64,000 bases of DNA from Olsenella sp. KGMB02461 (GCF_012584445.1 NZ_JABAHI010000008.1:1116001-1180000); one strand, 5' to 3'; numbered from the stretch's first letter, positions 35,002 to 39,132 are shown. Made by a program: numbers and translations. Notes: generated by a model not told the origin, from the letters alone.

Positions 35002-35280
35002 TCAGTCTTCTACCTGGACCTTTCTATATTGTGAGCCCTTCGCATCCCGAACCAGATAGCCACTGTCAATCATCAGGCGGCGAAGCCATACATAGTCATC
35101 CATAAGTGATGCCAAAACTTCATTGACCTCCCTTTCCGAATAACTCACACCCTCCTCGAAATTGCTCGAAGCCCAAAGCGCGAGCGCGTCTTTCATGGCC
35201 GACTTCGAAGGGATAGAGGCAACCCGCCCATCATCACGCACGTATCTTCTTACAAAATTGGCAATCCTTGTCTCATCCAC
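35002..35280 (-). CDS. DUF2087-family protein
   Basis: This 92-residue protein matches the DUF2087 pattern: FVRRYVRDDGRVASIPSKSAMK at the start, then YSEREVNEVLASLMDDYVWLRRLMIDSGYLVRDAKGSQYRK. This winged-helix-like domain often follows an HTH domain or stands alone as here, and is thought to act in regulation. GGGAGG precedes the ATG. It is divergent from the radical SAM gene at 35446 and lies at the left edge of the AT-rich island, so it could be a regulator of that cluster. That link is only positional. Confidence 0.8.
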   Translation of the reverse strand: MDETRIANFVRRYVRDDGRVASIPSKSAMKDALALWASSNFEEGVSYSEREVNEVLASLMDDYVWLRRLMIDSGYLVRDAKGSQYRKVQVED

Positions 35281-35445: not shown

Positions 35446-37722
35446 ATGAAGGCCACGCTGCTATTTCCCCCAGGATGGAGTCCCGCAGGACCTTATCTTG
35501 CCTTACCTGTGTTGAAAAGCTATGTTGAGACAACCACGAACCACACGGTAGATATCCGGGATATAAATATTGATTTTTATGATTGGTACTTCTCTGAAGC
35601 TCATGGTGTTTCTTGCTTAGACAATCTAGATAACAGCACTCTTACGCCGTCTGCCTACATTACGTCGCAACTGGTAGCCGAAAGCGCACTTCAAATTGAA
35701 GAGGCCAAACACATATTTAGATCCAATCTCTACTATGACCTTGAGAAGCGCCAGTTAGCTGAGAATATTTTTCGCAATGCAATATATATACTGAATTTAT
35801 GCGATTCATCTATTAAATGTACATTTAATGACATCGTTTTTGATAAGTTTTCACATTACTCATCGACCAGCGTGCTCGCGGGAGCCGAGAATCAAAACAA
35901 TCAGCTATACCAGTACTACCTTCAAAACACGATCCCGCAAATTGTGATGAACCAGACGCAGTTCATTGGCATCTCTATCAGCGGATCATATCAACTTATT
36001 CCAGGACTCATGTTTGCTTGCGCAATAAAACAACATTGCCCAACAGTTAAACACGTTAGTTTAGGAGGTAACTACATCACAAGGTTGGCTGATTATCATT
36101 CAGACAAGATAACGGGATTTTTTAAACACATCGATAGCGTTATGATGTATGAGGGCGAATTAGTACTCACAGCACTTCTCAACACCTTGGAGAAGTCTGG
36201 AACTGTAAACAACCTACCTTCCCTCCTTACTGTCATCAATGGAAAACCCCAAAAAACACCTCTAGCACCGTCGGTGACAAACAGTTTCACGCCTGATTTC
36301 GATGGCTTCAGCCTTGACAAGTACTTCATGCCTGAATTAATACTCCCAATCTATTCTTCGAGGCAATGTTTCAATAATTGTGCATTTTGTACCATACCGG
36401 GAGCAACAAACGGCCGTTACCGGACTGTGGATATAGCACGTGTGGTTGATATTATGGATGAGCTATCCGTCAAATATAATACTTGCGTTTTTTCTTTCGT
36501 TGACGAGACACTTGAGGCATCTCGCTTAGATGCCCTCTCCAAGGAGCTGCTATCAAGAGGCCGGCACTACTTTTGGCATGGAGAAACCCGTTTTAGTCCG
36601 CGCCTTACTAAGGACGTTTTTAAAAAGCTATTCTCAGCAGGGTGTCGACAGCTTCAGCTTGGACTAGAATCCTACAATCAGCGTGTGCTTAATTTGATGA
36701 AAAAGAATACGAAAGTCGAGTGGATAGATCAGAATATTAATGATGCTCTAGAATCCGGAATACCCGTCCACCTTTTCTTTATGACCGGCTTCCCTACGGA
36801 AACCCGCGAAGAGGCGCTAAACACGATTAGCTACACAGAGCAAGTACTCAACAGCTCTCGATCCCGTTACAATAATCCATATAGCACTCGAGGCTTTGAT
36901 GCGTTCGGTTTAGACATAGGCTCGGATGTCTGGAACCATCCAGACTCATATGGCGTTACACCAATCCCAAATGATGAACAATACAATATACGATTGAATG
37001 TAAGATATGAATCACGCTATGGGATGTCCATGGATGAAGTGAAAGACGTTATCATATCCCACCGTTTAGACCATCTAAAAACAATGCTAGATGAGACAGT
37101 ATTCGAATATGAAGTCCCCGATCGCATACACATCTCTGAGGCAACTTGGGTGCTCGACGCTTCGCATGGCATAACTCCGACCCCCAACACTCTCCATGTT
37201 GCACGGTGTCCCTCCTATTTTCGCTCTCCTATTCAATTTAGAAATGACTGTAATTTTATTATTCTCTCTGGTAATTGTTACATTTACAGCTTGTCGACTC
37301 ATGCGATCTGTAAGGTTAAGAGCAATCGAATTAAATGCATTAAAGGAGTCTATTACTACGTTTCTCAAAACGACCAGTTCGATCAGTCTACAATTCCCGC
37401 GCTTTCGTTTTATAACATGCTAGTTGATGATCAGCCTGTTTTTACTAACTATTCGGATACAACCGACTACTTGCTAATGGCAAACCCCTTTATATCTGTT
37501 ACTACCGTTGCTTCAGATACTTTCTTGATCGTCACCCCTACTCAAAAAATCTCTCGCGCAGGCACTGGCTTTACCGAGGTTATCGATAACCTACACAGGC
37601 CAAAATCAATAAATTATCTGAACTCTATTTTAAACCAAAAATACTCTATTACGACTGAATCGATTCGAAATTTAATCTCTATCGCAGCCCATGGCGAATT
37701 GATTATTCCAGTATTGCCCTAA
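35446..37722 (+). CDS. B12-binding-like radical SAM enzyme, probable peptide-modifying enzyme
   Basis: This 758-residue enzyme shows a B12-binding-like N-terminal half: MKATLLFPPGWSPAGPYLAL, then IGISISGSYQLIPGLMFACAI and VKHVSLGGNYITRL. The classical DxHxxG is absent. The radical SAM core follows, with CxxxCxxC at C308, C312 and C315 (RQCFNNCAFCTIPG), and GLESYNQRVLNLMKKNT and MTGFPTETREEA downstream. Residues from about 560 are a separate region. The last 70 (TPTQKISRAGTG...SIAAHGELIIP) resemble a PqqD-like winged helix that could bind a leader peptide. This is a tentative reading. It is AT-rich and unlike its flanks. ATG 35446 has AAAGG upstream. The 39-codon gene starts 21 bp after its stop. 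The overall shape recalls RiPP-maturation radical SAM enzymes, but the exact subfamily is not recognised. Confidence 0.85.
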   Translation: MKATLLFPPGWSPAGPYLALPVLKSYVETTTNHTVDIRDINIDFYDWYFSEAHGVSCLDNLDNSTLTPSAYITSQLVAESALQIEEAKHIFRSNLYYDLEKRQLAENIFRNAIYILNLCDSSIKCTFNDIVFDKFSHYSSTSVLAGAENQNNQLYQYYLQNTIPQIVMNQTQFIGISISGSYQLIPGLMFACAIKQHCPTVKHVSLGGNYITRLADYHSDKITGFFKHIDSVMMYEGELVLTALLNTLEKSGTVNNLPSLLTVINGKPQKTPLAPSVTNSFTPDFDGFSLDKYFMPELILPIYSSRQCFNNCAFCTIPGATNGRYRTVDIARVVDIMDELSVKYNTCVFSFVDETLEASRLDALSKELLSRGRHYFWHGETRFSPRLTKDVFKKLFSAGCRQLQLGLESYNQRVLNLMKKNTKVEWIDQNINDALESGIPVHLFFMTGFPTETREEALNTISYTEQVLNSSRSRYNNPYSTRGFDAFGLDIGSDVWNHPDSYGVTPIPNDEQYNIRLNVRYESRYGMSMDEVKDVIISHRLDHLKTMLDETVFEYEVPDRIHISEATWVLDASHGITPTPNTLHVARCPSYFRSPIQFRNDCNFIILSGNCYIYSLSTHAICKVKSNRIKCIKGVYYYVSQNDQFDQSTIPALSFYNMLVDDQPVFTNYSDTTDYLLMANPFISVTTVASDTFLIVTPTQKISRAGTGFTEVIDNLHRPKSINYLNSILNQKYSITTESIRNLISIAAHGELIIPVLP

Positions 37723-37743
37723 AGACGAAGAAGGGAGGGGAGT

Positions 37744-37863
37744 ATGGAAGACAGGCAGTTGATGCAGCATCCACAAGATCAGGAGGATGATAACTCGACC
37801 GTGGGTGACCTCTTTATTGAGGTTCTTGATCATGAAGACTACTTGGTCAAATACTGCAATTAG
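37744..37863 (+). CDS. 39-residue peptide gene, candidate RiPP precursor
   Basis: The ATG at 37744 is preceded by a very strong ribosome site (GGGAGGGGAGT) and ends at TAG 37861. The peptide starts MEDRQLMQHPQDQEDD, runs through GDLFIEVLD and ends HEDYLVKYCN. It has 11 acidic and only two basic residues. Both tyrosines (33, 37) and the only cysteine (38) sit in the last seven residues. An acidic helical leader with a GDLFIEVLD recognition-like segment and a short Tyr/Cys C-terminal core fits a precursor modified by the upstream radical SAM enzyme and exported by the downstream MFS protein. No database family is claimed. It could instead be an unmodified signalling peptide. Confidence 0.7.
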   Translation: MEDRQLMQHPQDQEDDNSTVGDLFIEVLDHEDYLVKYCN

Positions 37864-37870
37864 CCCATGA

Positions 37871-37901
37871 GCCCTGCCTCTTCTTGGTTCTGAGGCAGGG
37901 C
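37871..37901 (+). terminator. Hairpin between the 39-codon gene and the exporter
   Basis: Perfect 10-bp arms GCCCTGCCTC / GAGGCAGGGC have an 11-base loop seven bases beyond the small gene's stop. There is no good T-run, so it is more likely an attenuator or mRNA-stabilising hairpin that favours precursor over exporter expression. Confidence 0.65.
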
Positions 37902-37917
37902 CAATCTTCCTAACACA

Positions 37918-39132
37918 ATGTTCGAAAATAGTCCAATAATTCTCCTCATAGCGGCTCGCGCGTTCTCATCTTTTGGAATATGGACTGTGTCTACGGCTGC
38001 TCCTTCTGTCATCTTTGACGAAACAGGAAACCTCGCTCTTATGGCTCTTCTTTTCGTCTTCCGATCGGTGCCAGCTCTTCCAGCCAATGCCGCACTGATT
38101 GCCCTCGAAAATCGTGGGCATAAAAGCTTTTCTATTTTGCCTCGCCTAGAACTTGGACGTTGCGTACTCTACTTTCCAACTATATTTTTTGATAATGAAG
38201 TAATTGTTTTAATATCAACCCTCGCATGGGCTTTCGCAGAATCTCTAGCAATGCCCTGCTACTATTCTTTAGCTCCCGTGGCAGATGTTGCCAACAAACC
38301 AGAAAAATCAATCAATAGATTACTCACCGTCACCAACCTAACAATGCTTGTAGGTCCTGCAATAGCGGGAACCGTTGCCACATATCTCCCTTTTGGAACT
38401 CTTTCCTTTATCTCAGTTGCGCTCTTTGCGGGTGCCTCCATGTTTACCAGCCGCTTTTCTAAAATCGTCCAACAAAGCTTCCATGACCCTTCAGTACCAA
38501 TATCGGAATCTTCCTTTGTTCCAAATGAAAATAGGGATGCAACCAGCGGCAGAGTAAATACGAAAATACCAAAAATGGTACTTATATACCTTATTGTGGA
38601 TGCCACGTCAGGCTTCGCTTTTGGGTCACTCAATCCGCTTATGCCCATAATTGCCTCAGGCATCTCAGAGGTCCCTATAGCCTTATATGGTGCTTTTCTA
38701 TCCTTGTTAATGGGAGGTCAACTCTGCGGCAACATTGTCTATGAGTTAATTGGAGACCTTTTCTCATCGAATAAACTTTACTTTATAGCAACGGGCTTCT
38801 CACTTTTGGCTTTCTTGCTCTTCGGGTGGGCACCTTGGTGGGCGCTTTGCGGCGTCTTTCTCTTTTTAACGGGCCTGGGCAATTCTATACAAGATGTGTG
38901 CCTCCTCACCTCCCTTCAGACTGCAAACCGACTATCTCCCAGTACTCGCCTCATTGCCCTTCGCGAATCAATCGGATCCATAACGGTGCTATGTGCCTCT
39001 GTTGTAATAGCGATATTAATTAGCCTTATCCCAGTCAACATCATTGTCACTGTAGTCTTTATCGTAGCCGTAGCCACATCGATAATTACCTGGACAAGGC
39101 TCTCAAATCCGCAGTCCAAACCACTCACATAA
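37918..39132 (+). CDS. MFS transporter, probable exporter of the peptide product
   Basis: This 404-residue polytopic protein is of the MFS drug/macrolide-exporter type. It has about twelve hydrophobic segments (IILLIAARAFSSFGIWTVST at the start; TLSFISVALFAGASM; FLFLTGLGNSIQDVCLL) and a charged central loop of about 60 residues (PSVPISESSFVPNENRDATS). RLELGRCVLYFPTIFF and LTVTNLTMLVGPAIAGTVA resemble MFS helices 3-5. The ribosome site is weak, and the gene lies just behind the hairpin, so expression is probably lower than that of the small gene. AT-rich composition and ATA/TTA codons match the radical SAM gene. Export of the modified peptide is inferred from synteny. Confidence 0.82.
   Translation: MFENSPIILLIAARAFSSFGIWTVSTAAPSVIFDETGNLALMALLFVFRSVPALPANAALIALENRGHKSFSILPRLELGRCVLYFPTIFFDNEVIVLISTLAWAFAESLAMPCYYSLAPVADVANKPEKSINRLLTVTNLTMLVGPAIAGTVATYLPFGTLSFISVALFAGASMFTSRFSKIVQQSFHDPSVPISESSFVPNENRDATSGRVNTKIPKMVLIYLIVDATSGFAFGSLNPLMPIIASGISEVPIALYGAFLSLLMGGQLCGNIVYELIGDLFSSNKLYFIATGFSLLAFLLFGWAPWWALCGVFLFLTGLGNSIQDVCLLTSLQTANRLSPSTRLIALRESIGSITVLCASVVIAILISLIPVNIIVTVVFIVAVATSIITWTRLSNPQSKPLT

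Follow-up and report, generated by a model that had tools for sequence, protein, structure and literature searches.

A likely RiPP precursor gene between a B12-type radical SAM enzyme and an exporter in Olsenella sp. KGMB02461

We analysed a 64,000-nucleotide stretch of Olsenella sp. KGMB02461 (NZ_JABAHI010000008.1:1116001-1180000; hereafter the window), in which an original prediction had placed a new system for a ribosomally synthesised and post-translationally modified peptide (RiPP) at positions 35446-39132. The locus consists of a minus-strand DUF2087 gene followed by genes for a B12-type radical S-adenosylmethionine (SAM) enzyme, a 39-amino-acid peptide and a major facilitator superfamily (MFS) exporter. 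Nothing else belongs to the cluster; its enzyme, peptide and MFS genes sit between the DUF2087 gene and a conserved chromosomal block. PADLOC defence models gave no match. As predicted, the 758-residue open reading frame (ORF), its CxxxCxxC motif at residues 308-315, a spacing of 21 bases between enzyme and peptide genes, a hairpin, the MFS gene and an AT-rich block (GC 0.435, compared with 0.602 across the remaining window) were all present. The features are as follows.

35002..35280, minus strand: DUF2087 protein, 92 amino acids, a divergent neighbour and candidate expression modulator (Pfam PF09860, 69.8 bits)
35446..37722, plus strand: B12-type radical SAM enzyme, 758 amino acids, proposed peptide maturase (PF04055, 76.2 bits)
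36367..36390, plus strand: CxxxCxxC [4Fe-4S]/SAM motif, residues 308-315 (Cys308, Cys312, Cys315), invariant in 13 of 13 aligned sequences
37489..37719, plus strand: C-terminal winged-helix domain, about residues 682-758, proposed leader-binding RiPP recognition element (RRE) (AlphaFold2 (AF2) model, Foldseek, PF05402 in relatives)
37733..37742, plus strand: strong Shine-Dalgarno sequence of the peptide gene, gggaggggag (duplex energy)
37744..37863, plus strand: 39-amino-acid peptide gene, proposed precursor, MEDRQLMQHPQDQEDDNSTVGDLFIEVLDHEDYLVKYCN (homologs in genome G022 and genus g51)
37819..37860, plus strand: conserved C-terminal motif EV[LF]D[HF]EDY[LM]xK[YF]C[NH], proposed modified core (three-lineage alignment)
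about 37868-37903, plus strand: RNA hairpin between the peptide and MFS genes, with no T run (-22.8 kcal/mol, z -3.0)
37918..39132, plus strand: MFS exporter, 404 amino acids, DHA3-like, without a Shine-Dalgarno sequence (PF07690, 32.9 bits)

The peptide gene and its conservation

An exceptional ribosome site had been claimed for the 39-codon gene, and duplex energies bear this out. Pairing of the 20 bases upstream with the anti-Shine-Dalgarno sequence yields -11.8 kcal/mol; the enzyme and MFS genes reach -3.4 and -2.1, and only about 5% of the 42 long ORFs of the window attain the peptide's value even when the best start is allowed.

Searching with a profile of the enzyme led to a relative in genome G514 (E 4e-187), from a different family of the same order. 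Across 373 genomes sampled from the order, the enzyme is present in only two genera, the second of which (g51) has it in 8 of 45 genomes. Gene order in g51 is DUF2087, MFS, enzyme, peptide and then a terminator. The complete four-gene set was recovered in six of the eight genomes (split over two contigs in G554); the contigs of G567 and G546 stop short of the peptide gene. The peptide gene adjoins the enzyme gene in the window and in all six g51 genomes with a contig extending far enough, and the DUF2087 gene is kept with the cluster in every locus whose contig covers its side, as well as in G022. Identity between g51 and the window is 43% for the enzyme and 30% for the MFS protein. The g51 peptide, MDVINKDLLEQLKEFQEEGVVVEVFDFEDYMDKFCH, has 36 amino acids and a ribosome site of -12.7 kcal/mol, better than that of the window peptide; in neither cluster does any other gene have a ribosome site as strong as that of the peptide. 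Over its final 15 residues, the g51 peptide matches the one in the window at a level reached by 1 of 5000 shuffles. Between g51 genomes the cluster shows 99.1-99.6% DNA identity, while most of the flanking sequence diverges by 2-10% (L157 3500-8000 compared with its flanks), which suggests that the cluster recently recombined or spread there.

A third genus, represented by G022 from the family of the window, carries in the same chromosomal block a DUF2087 gene, a 39-amino-acid peptide (69% identical) and an MFS gene (55% identical). Eight peptide residues are invariant across the three lineages (Glu26, Val27, Asp29, Glu31, Asp32, Tyr33, Lys36 and Cys38), and the conserved motif runs directly to the stop codon. 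The original prediction had singled out a C-terminal cluster of Tyr33, Tyr37 and Cys38; all are present, but Tyr37 is not invariant because g51 has Phe at this position. Between the window and G022, the last 18 codons contain 9 synonymous changes and 1 amino-acid change, and the first 21 codons evolve at a pace like that of the MFS gene, indicating that the C-terminus is the part kept by selection.

It had been proposed that homologous loci be compared; in these, enzyme, exporter and small frame stay together and the C-terminus of the frame is conserved. Judged by its conservation in two other genera and by the strong purifying selection on its C-terminus, the 39-codon frame is a genuine, conserved gene, beyond what chance would produce. 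No homologs of the window peptide were found in plasmids and phages.

Downstream of the peptide gene, G022 has a hairpin at the matching position, different in sequence (z -3.3), and this element likely balances or stabilises the transcript. The MFS gene lacks a Shine-Dalgarno sequence in both genera (window 37904-37918; L052:6520-6540), and its translation there may depend on that of the upstream peptide. The MFS protein lies just below the PF07690 cut-off of 33.4, and its score for the DHA3 family TIGR00900 is 39.9 bits against a curated cut-off of 319.6. In one g51 locus (L162, genome G546) a single-base insertion causes a frameshift at MFS codon 208.

The radical SAM enzyme and its C-terminal domain

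The enzyme combines a radical SAM domain with the CxxxCxxC motif, as B12-type radical SAM enzymes do. Its AF2 model reaches a predicted local distance difference test (pLDDT) score of 71.5, with the first 540 residues confident, and the nearest solved folds in Foldseek are the B12-dependent radical SAM enzymes TsrM, OxsB, MgmA, AprD4, TokK and CysS. Among relatives, the B12-binding family PF02310 exceeds its cut-off in L056, L078 and L041 and stays below it in L157. The B12-binding-like N-terminal half that had been predicted is suggested by the relatives and by fold comparison, but not by a significant Pfam match in the query itself.

The original prediction had also stated that alignment to a non-peptide family would speak against it. 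By profile, the enzyme is closest to RiPP C-methyltransferases: the NCBIfam ranking is headed by TIGR03975 (rSAM_ocin_1; 94.7 bits, curated cut-off 281.85), followed by PhpK (92.9) and, third, ApyD (NF050148; 81.5 bits, curated cut-off 750). TIGR03975 is also the top family for all four relatives scanned. Taking together PF04055, the B12-dependent folds and the PF02310 matches in relatives, the class of the enzyme looks secure; its exact subfamily is new, since all NCBIfam scores fall far below cut-off. In g51, the enzyme gene shows 23 synonymous and 7 amino-acid variants (start-loss and nonsense codons set aside), indicating purifying selection.

Outside the order, the nearest enzymes are those of Streptomyces mesophilus (L056) and a Pseudonocardiales bacterium (L057), which group with the enzymes of the window and g51 in one clade (support 95/98). 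Directly 5' of both lie genes with a ribosome site for peptides of 50-52 amino acids (L056:6725-6877; L057:280-438), and this arrangement gives independent support to the view that enzymes of the clade act on short peptides. Aligned with each other, these two peptides score at a level matched by 4 of 5000 shuffles, and both contain YALL; they are unlike the window peptide, and we regard them as a second candidate RiPP family. A VEV leader motif shared by the window and actinomycete peptides was considered and dropped because the alignment scores lay within the shuffle range. Downstream genes encode a JmjC/cupin protein and an MFS protein in L056 and, among others, a P450 in L057. The Pseudonocardiales peptide was not found in plasmids, nor was the enzyme found in viral contigs by a single-protein search and a subfamily-alignment search.

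More distant relatives, in Rhizobium, Sinorhizobium, Desulfocapsa and Parabacteroides (22-27% identity), have unrelated neighbourhoods, and those of Nitrospira and Nitrospina are about 600 amino acids long, without the extra C-terminus. On a Rhizobium phaseoli plasmid, an unannotated ORF of 87 amino acids with a CxxC...CxxC pattern lies directly 3' of a related radical SAM gene (L041:9143-9406).

The six best Foldseek rows from the Protein Data Bank for the C-terminus of the window enzyme are either RREs or maturases that carry one (TbiB1, lasso B1, CteB; best E 0.028), and PqqD, SkfB and TigE rank shortly after. The PqqD family PF05402 scores above its gathering cut-off in the relatives L072, L078 and L127. 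These results support, without proving, a resemblance of the modelled C-terminus to a leader-binding winged helix of the RRE/PqqD type.

Interpretation and alternatives

The explanation that we favour, with a probability of about 0.78, is a RiPP cluster in which the enzyme modifies the 39-amino-acid peptide and the MFS protein exports it. We infer the following course. The strong ribosome site would cause the peptide to be translated in excess, and the winged helix at the enzyme's C-terminus would bind a hydrophobic-acidic stretch of the peptide's leader (about GDLFIEVLD; LFIEVLD in the window, VVVEVFD in g51), bringing the C-terminal EDYLVKYCN into the active site with its B12 and [4Fe-4S] cofactors. 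At least one carbon would be modified there, most likely by C-methylation, or alternatively by cross-linking through Tyr33, Lys36 or Cys38. The leader would then be removed by a protease encoded outside the cluster and the trimmed product exported by the MFS protein, with the DUF2087 protein possibly tuning expression. The peptides likely form a new family of RiPP precursors that has its own B12-radical SAM maturase and exporter.

Several observations weigh against this explanation. The AF2 model of enzyme residues 545-758, which ends beta-beta-beta-alpha-alpha-alpha, is of low confidence (pLDDT 45). VIA-align places the C-terminus among winged helices, with RREs mixed among repressors and generic winged helices tying or ranking higher. 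In the query enzyme itself PqqD gave no Pfam match, its C-terminus being too divergent, and a profile comparison with the PqqD-positive relatives returned a probability of 6.9%. The enzyme's NCBIfam scores, as noted, are far below cut-off. No leader protease is encoded in the cluster, and relatives of the MFS gene occur without peptide or enzyme (G007, G044). Four of the eight g51 enzyme copies (L158, L146, L160 and L159, from G548, G514, G550 and G571) carry early lesions, all within codons 1-29 of 773 (start-codon loss, nonsense at 11 and 29, a frameshift at 16), although the gene is otherwise intact and copies without early lesions also exist. Finally, the enzyme is absent from both the cluster and the whole genome of G022, although peptide, DUF2087 and MFS are kept. 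The damaged g51 copies and the enzyme-free G022 locus together point to repeated loss of the maturase.

A more far-reaching version, which we consider unlikely, is that the cluster defines a new RiPP class. Here the B12-radical SAM enzyme would carry leader-binding winged helices of its own, possibly in tandem, at the C-terminus and would form a bond in the invariant EDY..K[YF]C end; the product would be a cofactor, metallophore or signal conserved across families rather than a diversifying antibiotic, and the maturase would be repeatedly lost while the precursor was kept.

Alternatively, the peptide could be exported by the MFS protein and act unmodified, as a signal or metal binder, with the enzyme an optional neighbour that alters something else. 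G022 and the many damaged g51 copies fit such a reading, and because of G022 we leave it a small probability. However, enzymes of this subfamily lie directly next to the peptide gene in two families, those of Streptomyces and Pseudonocardiales lie next to short peptide genes, and the enzyme has an RRE-like end. We give no greater weight to the idea that the peptide serves as a scaffold of the kind used in pyrroloquinoline quinone (PQQ) and mycofactocin biosynthesis, its last residues being converted and excised as a small redox or metal-binding molecule. The precursor is indeed very short, its modifiable residues lie at the extreme C-terminus, and this end is conserved across two families rather than diversified, but the cluster contains no further maturation enzymes or proteases, only three lineages are known, and no cofactor-dependent partner was seen.

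It is very improbable that the 39-codon ORF encodes a leader or arrest peptide on whose conserved C-terminus ribosomes stall, opening the hairpin and thereby attenuating a downstream MFS drug pump. Both the window and G022 do have a stable hairpin after the ORF and then an MFS gene without a Shine-Dalgarno sequence, and the conserved part of the peptide reaches the stop codon. Yet in g51 the peptide gene comes last in the operon, behind MFS and enzyme and before the terminator, with the same C-terminal motif, and we reject attenuation because the peptide gene lies downstream of the MFS gene there. Short ORFs are common, and the window contains many, but a chance frame is refuted by homologs at the matching place in two other genera, strong selection and the best ribosome site of the cluster.

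If the favoured explanation holds, the locus offers a minimal, testable three-gene system: enzyme, substrate of 36-39 residues and exporter. Its peptide gene is short enough for routine gene calling to miss, and the independent homologs already indicate candidate residues of the peptide. The RiPP chemistry of this enzyme class is largely unexplored; in the literature searched, no such RiPP was found described for these actinobacteria, and a literature search returned no paper joining Coriobacteriia, RiPP and radical SAM.

Comparison with known systems

The rSAM_ocin_1 family is alike in placing B12-type radical SAM enzymes beside short precursors; the window enzyme differs from it in its C-terminus, and the peptides here belong to no recognised family. 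ApyD is a B12-type enzyme that acts on a Tyr-containing precursor, but the window cluster lacks the partner enzymes of that pathway. Biphenomycin-like bip/pbs clusters likewise combine a RiPP with a B12-radical SAM enzyme (BipD/PbsB) and an MFS protein, and their cupin or JmjC gene has a counterpart in the JmjC gene of the Streptomyces relative. In contrast, the window precursor has no FRF-type motif and ends in EDYLVKYCN, and the MNIO, arginase and TldD genes expected of a biphenomycin-like cluster are absent from the window cluster.

In bottromycin clusters, too, a DUF2087 protein accompanies a RiPP precursor and radical SAM methyltransferases that depend on B12 (PMC7113386). The DUF2087-bearing protein there is BtmL, which increases transcript levels of the precursor (PMC7113386), and by analogy the DUF2087 protein of the window is a candidate cluster-situated modulator of precursor expression. 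The window, however, lacks YcaO and the bottromycin core genes, and its 92-amino-acid DUF2087 protein is stand-alone. The PQQ and mycofactocin scaffolds share with the window a very short precursor, key residues near the C-terminus and, as proposed here, PqqD-like leader binding; the window enzyme differs from those systems in being B12-type, with no evidence of SPASM clusters, and in having its putative PqqD-like domain fused at the C-terminus.

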